Positions 47,225 to 53,774 of a stretch of 64,000 nt of DNA are shown piece by piece (the stretch's first letter is position 1; each line of letters opens with the position of its first letter). A program made the position numbers and the translations under genes. The stretch spans positions 744,001-808,000 of the forward strand of contig CP054184.1 in the NCBI GenBank assembly GCA_015709715.1, read 5' to 3'. Under the pieces are notes generated by a model. The model saw only the letters and a program-made list of their open reading frames with translations. It was not told where the DNA came from and did not search any database. Origin of the DNA: Nitrospira sp. Its GTDB lineage: Bacteria; Nitrospirota; Nitrospiria; Nitrospirales; Nitrospiraceae.

Positions 47225-47252
47225 TTGACAAACCCCATCCCTCAACTAGACT
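47225..47252 (+). promoter_or_regulatory. Candidate promoter placing the start at the ATG
   Basis: TTGACA at 47225-47230 and TAGACT at 47247-47252 are 16 bases apart. Transcription would begin near 47259, at the start codon of the Lon-like gene, and no ribosome-binding site is seen before that ATG. A leaderless mRNA is possible. Confidence 0.35.
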
Positions 47253-47258
47253 TGACCT

Positions 47259-47942
47259 ATGCGCAAAAAAACCATCACCAACGGAACACAACGGCTTCCC
47301 GGTTACACAACCTTGACCTTGGCCCTGTGCGCAATACTCGTGGCTGTCAGTCCATCGCAGGCGCGGGCCGATCGCCAGCTGACCGTCCCGATCTCTGTCG
47401 CCGCCTACACGGACCAACAAGTAGGCTTTCCCACGTTTGTGCTGAAGTGGGATCAAGGCGTGCAGCCCGACCCGCTGTCTCTACGATGGGGGCGCAGCCA
47501 AGTCCCGGTGAGGGGCGCAGGCATGGGTTCGATCCAGCGCGCATTTCAATTCGCCGTCGAGCGACTCGCAGCGAGCCTACACCCGACCGGCACCATCTCC
47601 CTCTATGCCACATTCTCGGGACCACTGACTGCGGAAGGCACGACCGCTGAGGCGGCGTTGGCCATTGGATTTCTGGCCCTCCTCAAAGGAGACCCCCTGC
47701 TGAAGGAAATCACCATCACCGGCACGCTGGAGCCGGATGGGCGGATCGGTCAGGTGGGGCAGGTCCAGGAAAAGACTTCGGCCGCCGCCCGTGCGGGTTA
47801 TCGGGTGTTACTGGTACCGCGAGGCCAGTTCTATGCACCCAGGGTCAACCTGATCAAGGCCACGTCTGAATCGAACGTGTTGGTGCGGGAAGTGGATACG
47901 ATTGAAGAAGCCTACGAACTCATGACCGGCAAGAAATTGTAA
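47259..47942 (+). CDS. Exported Lon-protease-like domain lacking the catalytic Ser-Lys dyad
   Basis: 227 residues. A signal peptide (about 1-38, ending SQARADR) precedes a domain that aligns with the C-terminal proteolytic domain of Lon (S16). Compare EGTTAEAALAIG (126-137) with Lon DGPSAG, and GRIGQVGQVQEKTSAAARAG (161-180) with Lon GLKEK. The nucleophile Ser is Thr129 and the catalytic Lys is Gln170, so normal Lon activity is unlikely. There is no AAA+ or PDZ domain. It is convergent with the TPR-CHAT gene, with a 22-base gap. It may be a binding or scaffold protein. Confidence 0.78.
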   Translation: MRKKTITNGTQRLPGYTTLTLALCAILVAVSPSQARADRQLTVPISVAAYTDQQVGFPTFVLKWDQGVQPDPLSLRWGRSQVPVRGAGMGSIQRAFQFAVERLAASLHPTGTISLYATFSGPLTAEGTTAEAALAIGFLALLKGDPLLKEITITGTLEPDGRIGQVGQVQEKTSAAARAGYRVLLVPRGQFYAPRVNLIKATSESNVLVREVDTIEEAYELMTGKKL

Positions 47943-47964: not shown

Positions 47965-50376
47965 TCACATCCAATTATTGATCAACAAGAACGGGGCCCA
48001 ATAGCTGGGGTGGGTATGTCCCGGCTGCGCGAGCATTTTCTGCTGTGCCCGTTGCAACGCTACGGCCTTGGAGACGGTGGAATCCTGCAGCTGCCGGTAG
48101 AACTCCGCGACGAGTTCAGGAGCGGCCTGATCACCGGCCACCCACAGACTGGCAAGCGCACTCCTGGCGCCGGTCTTCACGGCAATGCCTCCCAAGCCCA
48201 GCGCGGCACGGTCATCTTCGGCGGCCGTTTCGCAGGCACTCAAGGTCAAGAGTTCCAGCGGCTCTTTGCGATATTGCAGAAGACCGACCATCTGGGCGAG
48301 GCGATCCATCGAAATCTTATCGTCGTAGGCAAGCAGGAACGAGTTGGTCGCGTCATGTCCGACTTCGCTGTGTGAGGCCACATGCACGATGTCGACTTGT
48401 TGCGACTTGATCTGTTGTTCGACGGACGGCACAGAGAACTCGCTGTTCACCAACGCCGTGCCTCCGTAAATCGTCTTCACCGCCTGCACCTCGTCACCCC
48501 GCTCGGCTTCGGCGGGAAATCCCTGGCGCGACTCGGTCAACGCCATCGAGAGCACCCCACCTCGCCCCCGTTGCGAGGCACGTGGGTCGGTCAATTCCAT
48601 CGCCGGACTCACCGCCACCGCGTAGCGATTCACGACGAATTCACGACCGTCATGTAGGGCCGAGATGGGAATCGTCCGCAGCGTGCCTTCGGGCACCATG
48701 ACCAGTGTGGTGATGCCGGCAGCCTGGAAATCCTGTTGCAGCGGAGCGAGCAACCATCCGTAGAGCGTCTGTGCCGGCCCCAAATAGTTCTGCGAACGGC
48801 GGTCCTGCACGAGGTGCCGGAAGGCCCGAACCTCGCGGGTCAAGGTGTCCCCTCCCACGGGCACGGGGTAGTGTTTGAGCCCCGCGGCTGTCTCGACTAC
48901 CAATTCCAATCGGTCCGACAACGAGATGGGATACAGCACCGCGGTACCCGCCGGAATTCCGCTCACACCGCGTTGTTGCTTGGCCGTTGCCACACAGTCG
49001 TCACGGAAATAGTCCTGCAACTCGGCCCTGTGCGAGGCTTCCACCGCATCGCGCACACGGACCAGATACTGCTGGTTCTGTTCAGCGGACGTGCTCGCCG
49101 CCGTGCGCCGCAGTAACGCATCCTCATACTCGCGATAGAGCGGCAGGACGGATTCGCGGAACGAATGGTGGCGATTCTGAAACCCACTGGAATATTCGTA
49201 TCCGATCGGCTGGAGTACCGCGAGAGCTCGCTGGTAGGCGTCCAACGCTTCCTCTTCCTTGCCACTCGCGCGAAGCAATCGTGCCGTCTGCCATTGCCAA
49301 CGATAGAGGGAATCCGGAGCGTTGACCTTCTGTGCGGCAAAGATCGCCTTTCTGGAGTATTCAAGCGCCGCGGCGGAATTCTGCTCTGTTTCTCGGAGGC
49401 TCCCCAGGTAGCCCCAGGCGTACGACTGGCCCCTGGCGTCGCCGATGCGGCCGGCCGCTTCAGCAGCATGGGTGAAGGCCTCGGACGCCTGACGCAGTAA
49501 CTCCGCGTCGCCGGAAGCCGTCGAGGCCGCGGTGGCAGCCTCAGGCCTCTTCCCCGCGCCCGCTCGGGCCGCCGCCAGGGCCTCGTGCAGATCCTGATAT
49601 CCTAGGCCGATGTTCAATAACCCGGCCGTCTTCGCCTGGTCATCCTCGAGGGCCTGCACTTCTTTCAATGCCTGGTCGAATTCTCGCTGCGCCTCGGGGA
49701 GTTGTCGGTTCTGCATCCGCGCCACCGCCCCGTTGACCTGAGCCGTGGCCGACAGTGCGGGCTGCTTCGTTTCGGCAGCCAGGCGACGGCTCTCCGCATA
49801 GACGTCGATGGCTTCGGGAAATTGGCCGCGAGCAGCCAAGGCATTGCCCAAGTCGTTGAGGAGGCCGGCAACCAATGCCGGTCGCTGCTCCTCTCTTGCC
49901 AGATTCAAGGCCTTGGTGAGGTGCTCGGTGGCGGATTCGGCCTTGCCCAGCGATAGGGACGTAGTTCCGAGCTGCCCGAGGATCGTCGCCGTCAACAGCC
50001 GGTGGCCCGCCTGTTCCGACAGGGTGAGCGCTGTCTGCAGGACGTTCTGCGCCCGGCGAATTTGGCCTTCCCGCTGAAGGGCATAGGCCACGTTGATCAA
50101 GGCCTGACATTGCTCCTTGGCCTGCCCGATTTCTTCGTATCCACGAGCGGCCTCCATCCAATGCACGGCCGCTTGCGCAAAGGCGCCACGCTCAAACTGG
50201 ACCTTACCATGCCGCATCTGCTGATCCGCCTGGTCCTTCCCTGCGATCCCGAGCGGGCTCTCGGCCTGGACCGTCCGAGCATCCCACCCCCCGCCCAGGA
50301 GAAGGACGGCGCCAATCACAACCCTCGGCGCCAAGCCACCGATCGACTGTCTCCATGAGTCTCGACGCAACGGCAT
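47965..50376 (-). CDS. Exported TPR-CHAT (caspase-like) protease
   Basis: 803 residues. A signal peptide (about 1-40, ending TVQAES) is followed by about six TPR units (45-290), further helical repeats, and a C-terminal CHAT domain (about 500-803). The caspase-like dyad is present: H669 in VHVASHSEVG and C715 in LTLSACETA. CHAT proteases cleave protein targets after activation. ATG 50376 follows AAGGAGAAC. It is the last gene of the TpsB-TpsA-CHAT run and starts 17 bases after the TpsA stop. Export and TPR repeats suggest it acts on extracytoplasmic proteins, perhaps TpsA. Confidence 0.9.
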   Translation of the reverse strand: MPLRRDSWRQSIGGLAPRVVIGAVLLLGGGWDARTVQAESPLGIAGKDQADQQMRHGKVQFERGAFAQAAVHWMEAARGYEEIGQAKEQCQALINVAYALQREGQIRRAQNVLQTALTLSEQAGHRLLTATILGQLGTTSLSLGKAESATEHLTKALNLAREEQRPALVAGLLNDLGNALAARGQFPEAIDVYAESRRLAAETKQPALSATAQVNGAVARMQNRQLPEAQREFDQALKEVQALEDDQAKTAGLLNIGLGYQDLHEALAAARAGAGKRPEAATAASTASGDAELLRQASEAFTHAAEAAGRIGDARGQSYAWGYLGSLRETEQNSAAALEYSRKAIFAAQKVNAPDSLYRWQWQTARLLRASGKEEEALDAYQRALAVLQPIGYEYSSGFQNRHHSFRESVLPLYREYEDALLRRTAASTSAEQNQQYLVRVRDAVEASHRAELQDYFRDDCVATAKQQRGVSGIPAGTAVLYPISLSDRLELVVETAAGLKHYPVPVGGDTLTREVRAFRHLVQDRRSQNYLGPAQTLYGWLLAPLQQDFQAAGITTLVMVPEGTLRTIPISALHDGREFVVNRYAVAVSPAMELTDPRASQRGRGGVLSMALTESRQGFPAEAERGDEVQAVKTIYGGTALVNSEFSVPSVEQQIKSQQVDIVHVASHSEVGHDATNSFLLAYDDKISMDRLAQMVGLLQYRKEPLELLTLSACETAAEDDRAALGLGGIAVKTGARSALASLWVAGDQAAPELVAEFYRQLQDSTVSKAVALQRAQQKMLAQPGHTHPSYWAPFLLINNWM

Positions 50377-50393
50377 AGTGTTCTCCTTGGCCC

Positions 50394-51680
50394 CTAGCAG
50401 CCTTGCCACCCGTCACCCAGTCGACCCTGTGAAAGCATGGATGACCGGATCGTCGGCATCGTCGATGGCGCTCCCTCCGCGACCATCCCTCCGACCTCTT
50501 CCAGCACGACCGGACTGGGAAGGAAGGCGCCCGGTTGTGTCGGAGTCACATCCCTCGTCGCCTGCACGAAACTGCTGAAGGTGCCGTCCTTTCGCGAGGC
50601 ACACCGGCTGGTGACCAAGGCCACCGGCGGGGCTGGCGACTGTTGCGGCAGGATCGTAGCGGCACGGTTGACGACGGCAACGGGATCGATCGGATTGGCC
50701 AGTGCGATCGGCGCCGTCGAGGCACCGGAAGCCAACGGAATTGGCGGCAAGCCGCCAGTGTTCTGTCCGATCACCTGGATCTGGGTGATTCGTTGCGTGA
50801 AGGGGTTCGTAGTCGTCACCACCTGCGCCCCCGAGGGTACCGTGATCGTAGACGGCAACACGTCCACGGAAGCGGGAATCACTCCTCCCCCCCCGGCCTG
50901 GAGCACCGTTCCAGGAGCAGCCTGGACATCACCGGCCTGGGTCACTCGGACAAACGGATTACTTGCGAAGGGCTCCACACTGACATTGCCGCCGGAGGCC
51001 CCGTTACTGCCGACCACGACCCGTTGTGCGGAGATACGCGACCCGTTGATCTGCACCGTGCCGCCGACCAAGCCGATCACGGCATTCCCCTGTAACACCG
51101 TCCCGGACGACAACACGACGGGACCGTAGGGTGCGGGGCCCAGAAATCCAAAGGAAGCCGGCGGGGCCACCGACAGCGTGTTGTCGAAGGCGAACTGGTT
51201 GGCGGAAAACACTCGTTGGTCGCTGAAGAGAATGGCATTGGCCGTTCCGAAAAAGGCCGAACCCGTGACATTCAATCGCGCCGAGGGTCCGAAAATCACC
51301 CCGGATGGATTGATAAAATACAGATTCCAATTCAACGCTTGAATCGTGCCGTTGATATTCGAAGGGGATCCGCCGATCACGCGGCTGATGACGTTGCTGG
51401 CCCCGCCGGGATTCACGAAGGCGGCGACATCGCCTGCCCCCACGGAGAATTGATTGAAGCTATGGAAGACGTTGGGCCCGTTGCCCGGCCTGGTCCCGCC
51501 GGTGATATTGGTGACGTTCCCGGACGTGCTGACCGAAGTTCCAAGCCCACCGGTGCCCACGGCACCAGGCGTCGGAACGATATTGGTCGACTGTGCGCGA
51601 GCTAGTTGAGGGGTCAGGGCGGTCAGCACTGTCAAGGCAACAGCCGCACCGGTCAAGAGCCGCACAGGTTGGAACGTCAT
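50394..51680 (-). CDS. Miniature TpsA exoprotein (FHA N-terminal domain)
   Basis: 428 residues, far shorter than ordinary TpsA proteins (1000-4000). A signal peptide (to about residue 30, LARAQS) precedes a filamentous-haemagglutinin TPS domain: VFHSFNQFSV at 72-80, then FINPSGVIFG near 122, matching the NPNG-type motif, and SAFFGTANAILF near 141. No long beta-helix repeats follow. A Pro/Ala-rich segment leads to a C-terminal region with cysteines (SRCASRKDG near 358 and the final GWQGC), resembling the ends of cyanobacterial TPS exoproteins. The start follows GAGGAGG. It would be secreted by the TpsB encoded upstream. Confidence 0.87.
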   Translation of the reverse strand: MTFQPVRLLTGAAVALTVLTALTPQLARAQSTNIVPTPGAVGTGGLGTSVSTSGNVTNITGGTRPGNGPNVFHSFNQFSVGAGDVAAFVNPGGASNVISRVIGGSPSNINGTIQALNWNLYFINPSGVIFGPSARLNVTGSAFFGTANAILFSDQRVFSANQFAFDNTLSVAPPASFGFLGPAPYGPVVLSSGTVLQGNAVIGLVGGTVQINGSRISAQRVVVGSNGASGGNVSVEPFASNPFVRVTQAGDVQAAPGTVLQAGGGGVIPASVDVLPSTITVPSGAQVVTTTNPFTQRITQIQVIGQNTGGLPPIPLASGASTAPIALANPIDPVAVVNRAATILPQQSPAPPVALVTSRCASRKDGTFSSFVQATRDVTPTQPGAFLPSPVVLEEVGGMVAEGAPSTMPTIRSSMLSQGRLGDGWQGC

Positions 51681-51825
51681 CGTGATCCTCCTCAGCCGGT
51701 GTGGGGCAGGCATCGCGCTCTCTTACTCTACTTTCACAAAGAACTGCAAGGCACGTTGAACCCTGTACGGTTCCGCACTAGAGCCATTCGGTGGAAGCTC
51801 TGGGCCCGTCGGACCGATGCCGCGC

Positions 51826-53622
51826 CTAGAACGCTTCCACGACCAATTGCAGGTGCACGCCATGGTCTTGCAGGTTGCCGCGCTCCGTGTCGAACTTGCG
51901 CAGTTGTTTCCCCCAATAGATTTCGAATCGGCTCCCGCGCCAGAAATTCCAAATCCCGCCGATCCCCACGCTCGCAAGCGTCTTGGGAGGAGAACCGGGC
52001 GTCTCCACCGTGGTCTGCCACCCATGGCCCAGATCGACAAAGGGCGCCAGAAACGCCCTGTCCACTCCCGCCTTGTCTTGGTACACCGGCACCCGCGCTT
52101 CAAGGGAGCCCATGGCCGCATTGTCACGGATCAAGGTAAACTCACGATACCCGCGCACGCTGTAGCGTCCGCCGAGGGCCATTTGTTCCAGCGGAAACAG
52201 GTGGTCGTTGGACAGTTGTACGACGCCACGGCCCACCAGTTGTGTCCTCATCCAAGGCAATTGACGGATGACCTGCGCCTGCCCCAACCAGGAGAAGAAA
52301 CGCGAATCGGGCAAGTTCCGATCACCGTTGGCGGTCGCCCCCAGTGCGCCGACGCCGACAGAAAAGCGTGAGGAGGCCAACAACACCTGGTTGGAGGAAC
52401 GTTGAGAATATTCCTGGCCGAACCGCAAAGCCGTCACGCGGAATTTGCCGCCCGGCGAGCCCGCCACCAACTCCTGAGGGACCCCGCCGATCGAACTCTC
52501 GTTGGTTTCATGTTCACCCATGAGGTACAGAGCAAACTCCCGATCGAGCCGACGATAGACGGGGTGTCGCGCAGAAAGACTGAAGATCTGCGCTTTGTTC
52601 CGGATGTCCAGCTCTTCGAACGGGTCTTCCGTCACGCTGAAGTCGAAGCGGCGGTATTGGAAGGCCACCGTCGTGTCGTGGGCGTTCACCGGCACTTCAT
52701 AACGAAAATTCAGCATCGGGTTCACGCCCGCCGAACGGCCGTATTGTAGGCTGAGCGTATCCCCGAAGCCGAGGACGTTCTGGTGCGCCAGGGTCACGAA
52801 CCCCTGCTCGGCACCGACGTTGGGAGACTGGTAGTTGTTGAATTCGAGCCAGGCCTTGACGGGATTGGCTTCCTTCACCCGCACGTTCAGCGTGCTCTCA
52901 CCCCTGACGAGGCCGGGCAGCAGTTCCGCATTCAGCCTCTCGATCCTAGGGTTGGCCTGAATGAGCTGCAAGCGCTCCTCCAGGTTCGCCACATTCAACG
53001 GAGGCCCGGCCGCCAGATTCACGCGATTGCGGAAGTAGGAAGGGCGAAACCACTTGGTGTCGTCGACATTCACCTGCGTCAATGTGCCTTCCACGATCTG
53101 CATTGTGAGCACGCCGTCGGCGACGTCCTGATCCGGGATCACCGCCCCTGACGTCACATACCCGTGATTGATGTAGTAGTACGTAAGCGCCAGACGAAGC
53201 GCCTCCAAATCCTCCGCCGTCAACTCCCGATTGGCATAGGGGGCCGTGACTGCGGACAGCTGTTGCTGTGTGAAGGCCGTATTCCCGACCAGCCGAATCT
53301 CCTTCACCATGATCCTGGGGCCGGTCACGGCTTTTTCCAATTCACCGCGCGACGGAGGTGGAACTTCGAGCGCCGGCGGCTGAACGGGCGGAGGTGCCGT
53401 CGGCAGTTGGGGCGGCTTGGGCGGCAGCGGAGTCGTTTGTACCTCCGGCGGCAAAGGAATCGTCGGTACCTGTGCATGGGCCGGCGAGAAGGTTGCGTTC
53501 ACGAGCAGAAAGCAGGCGGCTGCAACGGCGGAGACTCGTCGGCAAGCGGACCACCGGGGACCGAAGCTCTCCTTACCGTGAACGCATGATGTCTGTTTCC
53601 CCGCTTCATCCGCACAAGCCAT
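51826..53622 (-). CDS. TpsB outer-membrane transporter (ShlB/FhaC/HecB family)
   Basis: 598 residues. Signal peptide to about residue 50, a Pro-rich linker (55-95), a POTRA domain (about 104-185, IRLVGNTAFTQQQLSAV), and a C-terminal ShlB-type beta-barrel ending in a terminal Phe (LVVEAF), typical of outer-membrane proteins. It secretes TpsA partners through its pore. The ATG at 53622 follows GAAGGAGGG. The barrel contains GGRYSVRGYREF, the conserved VRG[Y/F] motif of the family. First gene of the TPS-CHAT run; 145 bases separate it from TpsA. Confidence 0.95.
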   Translation of the reverse strand: MACADEAGKQTSCVHGKESFGPRWSACRRVSAVAAACFLLVNATFSPAHAQVPTIPLPPEVQTTPLPPKPPQLPTAPPPVQPPALEVPPPSRGELEKAVTGPRIMVKEIRLVGNTAFTQQQLSAVTAPYANRELTAEDLEALRLALTYYYINHGYVTSGAVIPDQDVADGVLTMQIVEGTLTQVNVDDTKWFRPSYFRNRVNLAAGPPLNVANLEERLQLIQANPRIERLNAELLPGLVRGESTLNVRVKEANPVKAWLEFNNYQSPNVGAEQGFVTLAHQNVLGFGDTLSLQYGRSAGVNPMLNFRYEVPVNAHDTTVAFQYRRFDFSVTEDPFEELDIRNKAQIFSLSARHPVYRRLDREFALYLMGEHETNESSIGGVPQELVAGSPGGKFRVTALRFGQEYSQRSSNQVLLASSRFSVGVGALGATANGDRNLPDSRFFSWLGQAQVIRQLPWMRTQLVGRGVVQLSNDHLFPLEQMALGGRYSVRGYREFTLIRDNAAMGSLEARVPVYQDKAGVDRAFLAPFVDLGHGWQTTVETPGSPPKTLASVGIGGIWNFWRGSRFEIYWGKQLRKFDTERGNLQDHGVHLQLVVEAF

Positions 53623-53774
53623 CAAGGCCCTCCTTCTTGATGACAGGACGCAACACCCGTAATGCAGGTCCCGCAGAATCATCCCGGACTGTTGCACAAC
53701 TGCACAGTCGTCGTGTTACGTATCTCTCCTAGGAACCTGTTCTCTGAGCCGGTGCTTATAACACGTCTGGAGAG

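Follow-up and report, generated by a model that had tools for sequence, protein, structure and literature searches.

What does a small, putatively exported protein with a Lon-type proteolytic domain do next to a CHAT protease gene, when its active centre differs from that of Lon? This question is raised by LON-A, a 227-residue protein encoded in a 64 kb stretch of DNA (the window) that is part of the 4.16 Mb single-contig genome of a Nitrospira. The original prediction described LON-A as an exported, dyad-less, single-domain Lon relative, in which the nucleophile Ser is replaced by Thr129 and the catalytic Lys by Gln170, and suggested that it may be a structural binding protein. Here, we show that only the Ser is changed and that the Lys is present as Lys172, and we argue that a binding role is still to be favoured, on evidence different from that first given. 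The features discussed are listed in Table 1.

Table 1. Position and basis of the features at the LON-A locus (window coordinates)
Feature	Position	Strand	Basis
Promoter TTGACA-N16-TAGACT, ending 6 nt before the LON-A ATG	47225..47252	+	Sequence and conservation
LON-A gene, S16 (Lon_C)-fold, ATPase-less, putatively exported, 227 aa	47259..47942	+	Open reading frame, domain match, orthologues
Putative signal peptide, residues 1-37 (MRKK start, hydrophobic stretch, end SPSQARA before D)	47259..47369	+	Read from sequence
Thr129 codon, position of the Lon catalytic Ser	47643..47645	+	Alignments
Gln170 codon, variable non-catalytic column	47766..47768	+	Ala in 26/30 orthologues
Lys172 codon, true equivalent of the Lon catalytic Lys	47772..47774	+	Alignments and spacing to Thr129
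TPR-CHAT protein, exported-type, next gene, tail-to-tail with LON-A	47965..50409	-	CHAT 169.8 bits
TPS-domain (filamentous haemagglutinin N-terminal) exoprotein; its frame overlaps the CHAT start	50394..51713	-	PF05860 115.8 bits
ShlB/FhaC-type two-partner secretion porin	51826..53697	-	PF03865, PF08479

RESULTS

LON-A carries a single S16 domain

The Pfam model Lon_C matches residues 121-217 of LON-A with 30.4 bits, above its gathering score of 21.1, and matches all 31 members of the family alignment. Besides Lon_C, the Pfam search returned only a ChlI match below the cut-off, and the AAA+ ATPase module is absent from the 227-residue chain. In the PDB, LON-A matches Lon P domains, with a best E of 5.4e-7 for the single sequence and 1.1e-14 for the family profile, and the S16 assignment of the original prediction holds. 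When the orthologues of LON-A (clade A) were combined with its Ser-bearing paralogues (clade B), the joint profile was aligned by hhalign over its full length with the P domains of the genome's own Lon (probability 98.1, E 9.1e-13); the match of clade A alone was weak (probability 6.4, E 0.0016) and became strong only once clade B was added. The sequence searches gave no evidence for a non-Lon fold. The nearest named record with a LON-A protein is that of Nitrospira sp. isolate UBC2 (73% identity), and viral relatives, sought to deepen the alignment, were not found. The three-dimensional model of LON-A is of low quality (pLDDT 37.1, pTM 0.34), because it was built from an alignment of two sequences, that of the window and one named relative.

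As originally proposed, the N terminus of LON-A reads as a signal peptide. This part evolves much faster than the mature part, with a median dN/dS of 0.55 compared with 0.07 over 406 pairs; the values were estimated pairwise by the Nei-Gojobori method and are near saturation, with 25 pairs saturated for the signal part and 46 for the mature part. We infer from these sequence features that LON-A is exported to the periplasm or the surface. The promoter, unlike the sequence upstream of it, is conserved in 29 aligned clade A upstream regions, and its motif followed by an ATG at this spacing occurs only once in the genome at up to one mismatch. As the predicted transcription start falls at or beside the ATG, the start codon is supported and the mRNA is probably leaderless. 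TAGACT or TACACT also lies a few nucleotides before the ATG of several clade B genes.

The catalytic dyad of LON-A is predicted to be Thr-Lys

The passages of PMC9569914 that deal with the dyad give Ser679/Lys722 for E. coli LonA and exactly 42 residues in between in every Lon subfamily. In LON-A, 42 residues separate Thr129 from Lys172, and 40 separate Thr129 from Gln170. Moreover, the K of the 'QEK' motif (Lys172) is paired with the second K of the Lon GGLKEK motif both by HMMER, against E. coli Lon, and by HH alignment, against the host's own Lon. From the spacing and both alignments it follows that the dyad here is Thr-Lys, and that the Lys was first placed two residues off. Alignment, spacing and variability rule out Gln170 as the catalytic residue: Lys172 is found in 28 of 30 orthologues, and 26 of them have Ala at position 170. 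Judged by these alignments, the dyad of LON-A is altered but not absent, its sole change being that of Ser to Thr, another hydroxyl residue. That Thr129 occupies the nucleophile position was correctly predicted, and no clade A protein has Ser there.

Clade A has Glu where clade B has the Gly of its Ser-Ala-Gly (SAG) sequence, and Thr154, in a T-G segment conserved with Lon, is invariant. Across all proteins, column 129 is occupied by S, T, D, G or N, which are all good helix N-caps. A helix begins at residue 130 in the poor model of LON-A, and it is conceivable, from this model, that column 129 might serve as such a cap.

Thr129 is retained throughout the genus

Clade A orthologues were found in all 29 genomes of the genus, many of which are draft assemblies, and are intact in 28, the frame being disrupted in G250. 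Within 175 genomes of the family, clade A is present in 30, the thirtieth (G265) belonging to another genus. At the main locus, Thr129 is conserved in 29/29 (one frameshifted; 28/28 intact) and Lys172 in 27 of the 28 intact genes. Clade A comprises 30 distinct sequences in the genus; these have Thr (29) or Gly (1) at position 129, and Lys (28) or His (1, in G247) at position 172, which is missing in the frameshifted G250 sequence. The conservation check in relatives thus upheld position 129 of the original prediction but not position 170. A frameshift or single-strain change as the origin of Thr129, which had been named as a possible refutation, is ruled out by the genus-wide orthologues and by the dN/dS of the gene. 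Relatives with both Ser and Lys intact do exist, but they are paralogues (39/39 in clade B) and not orthologues.

The nucleophile column of the 30 clade A proteins of at least 170 residues, counted across both genera, contains Thr 28, Gly 1 and Asp 1, and both the Gly and the Asp form retain Lys. In an enlarged set of 97 S16 proteins of at least 170 residues (two of them full Lons; six shorter fragments were dropped), the nucleophile column contains Ser 66, Thr 28, Gly 1, Asp 1 and Asn 1, and the Lys column contains Lys 96 and His 1. Since Lys is retained in the Gly, Asp and Asn forms, its conservation alone is no proof of catalysis.

The Asp form is the G265 orthologue of the sister genus and lies at the syntenic place; its sequence has Ser at the flanking positions 128 and 131, which might be considered as substitutes. 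The Gly form is a second LON copy in G245, which could be contamination, as the G245 bin is 66% complete. The Asn form is an exported-type clade C protein of G288 (L158, 1335-2112), possibly another loss of Ser in the wider family.

Clade B consists of paralogues at about 35-45% identity, found alongside clade A in its genomes and throughout the family, and Ser and Lys are also present in clade C (9/9). In a supported tree of 43 rows chosen from the 97 proteins (a quick tree took all 97), clade A is monophyletic (bootstrap/SH-aLRT 100/100) and nested among the Ser-bearing clade B, next to members of clade B from a different genus (99/92). The Asp copy is sister to the Gly copy (97/87). The nesting of clade A implies that Ser was lost on the clade A stem, and by this tree LON-A is placed as a descendant of the exported-type Ser-Lys S16 proteins of clade B.

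The mature part of LON-A is under strong constraint (dN/dS about 0.07, with synonymous sites near saturation). Codon 129 in 29 rows is ACG (11), ACT (8), ACC (6), ACA (3) or a Gly codon (1); that all four Thr codons are in use indicates that Thr is retained by selection. The Gly and Asp forms are still constrained, at dN/dS 0.083 and 0.118 respectively. Mean entropy is equal in clade A (0.41) and in 22 clade B sequences of the same genus (0.43). Residues 126-128, just before Thr129, are variable in clade A while nearly fixed as D-G-P in same-genus clade B. Ranked by loosened constraint relative to clade B, residues 125-128 come second among 185 four-residue segments, and residues 126-129, which include the invariant Thr, come only nineteenth.

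LON-A and the TPR-CHAT gene are co-inherited

The CHAT gene predicted beside LON-A is indeed its neighbour. A TPR-CHAT gene follows LON-A on the opposite strand in all 29 genomes of the genus, as seen from the gene neighbourhoods of 26 and from the gene coordinates for G249, G255 and G179; the ShlB and TPS genes precede it. In the window, the frame of CHAT shares 16 nt (50394-50409) with that of TPS, which suggests translational coupling. Of the 26 genomes that were read over a longer stretch, 24 have the complete block PAS kinase-NUDIX-SDR-LON-CHAT-TPS-ShlB; in the remaining two it is cut by contig ends. As the unrelated SDR, NUDIX and PAS kinase genes keep the same order, adjacency alone is weak evidence for a link between LON-A and CHAT.

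Loci outside the block are more informative. In G245, a second TPS-CHAT-LON unit with the Gly form (L109, 1-6777) adjoins a glycosyltransferase-like gene, named from its sequence; this unit may be mobile or a bin contaminant. G251 and G254 have extra CHAT genes with LON remnants tail-to-tail, which brings to three the CHAT loci outside the block that keep a LON gene or its remnants in this arrangement. At the extra CHAT loci of G055 and G169, a LON trace was sought and no convincing one was found; among the four extra CHAT loci L124-L127, this is true of two (L124 and L127).

A tree of the CHATs joins those paired with a Thr-type LON in one clade with 100% support, to which the outer G265 CHAT also belongs; the CHATs beside the Gly and Asp LONs fall outside it. 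The LON branch (Thr versus Gly/Asp) agrees with the type of CHAT beside it. Clade A was found in the same two genera as its close CHAT (identity of at least 56%), and no CHAT relative was found at E 1e-10 in nine clade B neighbourhoods outside the genus or in two inside it. In G265, two ShlB-TPS-CHAT cassettes stand in tandem (L123, 6753-18887), and the inner CHAT, which lacks both His and Cys, adjoins the Asp-type LON.

The active sites of the partner CHATs are altered

In the clan CD motif, the catalytic His is followed by Gly. The window CHAT has a His-Cys dyad, with His680-Ser681 and Cys726 as counted from the translation. In CHATs beside a Thr-type LON, the Gly after His is gone in all 28 distinct sequences, with Ser or Thr in its place; His is replaced by Gln or Arg in five and Cys by Ser in one, both being kept in 22. 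By comparison, 16 of 18 CHATs not beside a Thr-type LON are intact, and 17 have the Gly. Both exceptions are in G265, and one of them, with Arg and Thr in place of His and Cys, adjoins the Asp LON. These rows are distinct C-terminal sequences, and tblastn pieces short of query residue 800 were left out; the 28 and the 18 include neither L165, which partly duplicates the window CHAT, nor the G250 CHAT (HS, Cys kept; LON frameshifted). We rejected a reading of one event per row, as on the tree His was lost along roughly three lineages (G169; G121 with G256; G251) and Cys along a single one.

The altered clade is nevertheless constrained, with a median dN/dS of 0.063 (435 pairs, 360 finite). Among the six CHATs without His or Cys, five have dN/dS of 0.047-0.067, and the sixth, whose frame is split by a frameshift, has 0.125. 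A statement of the His-Gly rule of clan CD was not found in the sections of PMC4626109 that were covered. In the relevant part of PMC9729208, the protease activity of a TPR-CHAT protein is described as abolished by Cys-to-Ala or Cys-to-Ser substitution. From its residues, the CHAT at the LON-A locus is probably a weakened or dead protease.

DISCUSSION

LON-A resembles several known systems but is identical to none of them. Closest is the exported-type clade B, represented in the same genome by a copy at G000:C1:935640-936260, which likewise has a signal-peptide-like N terminus and one Lon_C domain and lacks the ATPase. The two are about 41% identical and have similar C termini, ending AY-x-MTG; unlike LON-A, clade B has Ser and Lys in all 39 sequences compared and DGPSAG in nearly all. 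With LonA, LonB and LonC (MEROPS S16, clan SJ), LON-A shares P-domain homology, an acidic-Gly-X sequence before the nucleophile and the exact Lys spacing. It differs from them in that the AAA+ module is absent, the protein is probably exported, Thr stands for Ser, and Glu stands for Gly two residues later. The Lon-like domain of the genome's own RadA/Sms (L163) gave a weak match to the LON-A family profile (E 0.00018). RadA is a cytoplasmic RecA-type protein in which the Lon fold is in non-peptidase use.

The S16 domain of YlbL/SepM is ATP-independent and extracytoplasmic. LON-A is like it in having a putatively extracytoplasmic, ATPase-less S16 domain, and unlike it in its non-Ser nucleophile. 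LON-A scored 21.3 bits against the PDZ-Lon YlbL/SepM model NF041438 (cut-off 200), and no PDZ domain was found in it by Pfam; the PDZ-Lon_C architecture is described in part of PMC2605481. As for the neighbour, Craspase Csx29 has a TPR + CHAT architecture with a His-Cys dyad, as given in the relevant part of PMC9729208. The CHAT beside LON-A has the same architecture and dyad, but it is exported-type, linked to two-partner secretion genes and altered in its His-Gly motif.

Our literature search did not find LON-A or a Thr-type Lon centre reported, and the pertinent sections of PMC9569914 describe Lon active centres with Ser only. Judged by its sequence, LON-A is a variant of the S16 fold not described before. 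It should not be called a Lon protease, because the Ser nucleophile and the ATPase are absent. From the original description, putative export, the single domain and the likeness to Lon stand, while 'dyad-less' does not, as Thr-Lys remains.

How could LON-A have come to its present state? We propose that it would have arisen from clade B-type exported Ser-Lys S16 proteins and become a partner of the ShlB-TPS-CHAT cassette. Its nucleophile Ser would have been replaced, by Thr genus-wide and by Asp or Gly in the other branch, with Lys kept. LON-A would then most likely hydrolyse peptides poorly or not at all, and would bind or scaffold the TPR-CHAT protein or the TPS exoprotein, either periplasmically or on the cell surface. 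We give about an even chance to this reading, namely that LON-A is an exported S16-fold partner of CHAT/TPS with little or no hydrolysis and a binding role; the loss of hydrolysis and the physical contact with CHAT or TPS are inferred. That two unrelated protease folds are encoded by conserved, co-inherited genes with eroded active sites is best accommodated by a non-proteolytic role in binding, scaffolding or regulation. It is the Asp and Gly forms and the altered CHAT partner that now speak for the binding protein first suggested. Somewhat more tentatively, the S16/Lon (clan SJ) and CHAT (clan CD) proteins could together be a secreted pseudoprotease pair, both remodelled under strong purifying selection, that forms a non-proteolytic complex genus-wide.

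Several observations argue against a binding role in partnership with CHAT. A hydroxyl and a Lys are kept at catalytic spacing, which a free binding surface would not need. The Gly, Asp and pseudogene cases belong to the other branch or to extra copies, and the losses there may not bear on the Thr branch. Most partner CHATs (22/28) keep both His and Cys. Finally, unrelated genes around LON-A share the conserved order, and two of the four extra CHAT loci show no convincing LON trace. The first alternative is that LON-A is an active Thr-Lys hydrolase in which Lys172 activates Thr129 to trim a periplasmic or surface substrate, possibly CHAT or TPS. The exact Lon spacing, the invariant Thr154, and Thr129 in 28/28 intact genes with four synonymous codons at a dN/dS of about 0.07 would all fit such an enzyme. 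So would the pattern that a LON without the hydroxyl, or a LON pseudogene, is usually accompanied by an intact CHAT and a Thr-Lys LON by an altered one, as if one active member were enough. However, the sister-genus locus has neither member intact (an Asp LON beside a CHAT without His and Cys), and Asp and Gly stand at the nucleophile position in relatives that are still constrained. The His in place of Lys in G247, the Glu in place of the SAG Gly of clade B, and the lack of a reported Thr-type Lon centre in the literature searched also argue against it, and we regard an active hydrolase as possible but unlikely.

It is more doubtful still that LON-A acts alone, e.g. as a general periplasmic peptide-binding protein or a weak protease, with its adjacency to CHAT a matter of conserved gene order. 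The synteny of the whole PAS kinase-to-ShlB block (24/26) is in keeping with this, as are the extra CHAT copies without LON (L124, L127) and the position of LON-A outside the CHAT operon, convergent with CHAT and with a promoter-like site of its own. Against it are the three loci outside the block, the agreement of LON branch with CHAT type and the confinement of clade A and the close CHAT to the same two genera. That the gene is decaying, or is an artefact of sequencing or assembly, as the disrupted frame in G250 (1/29 genomes) and the remnants at two extra loci could be taken to indicate, is very improbable and is refuted for the main locus by 28/29 intact genomes, the low dN/dS and the conserved promoter.

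We would like to point out that a genus-wide, constrained change of Ser to Thr with Lys kept is a natural test of the S16 fold without its usual nucleophile. The linkage of LON-A with an altered CHAT in a secreted cassette makes it possible to test, in organisms with very little genetics, whether proteases have become binding partners. If Thr129 does work, it would be a new kind of hydrolase centre. An annotation as 'CHAT protease' or 'S16 protease' should, in these genomes, not be taken as activity.
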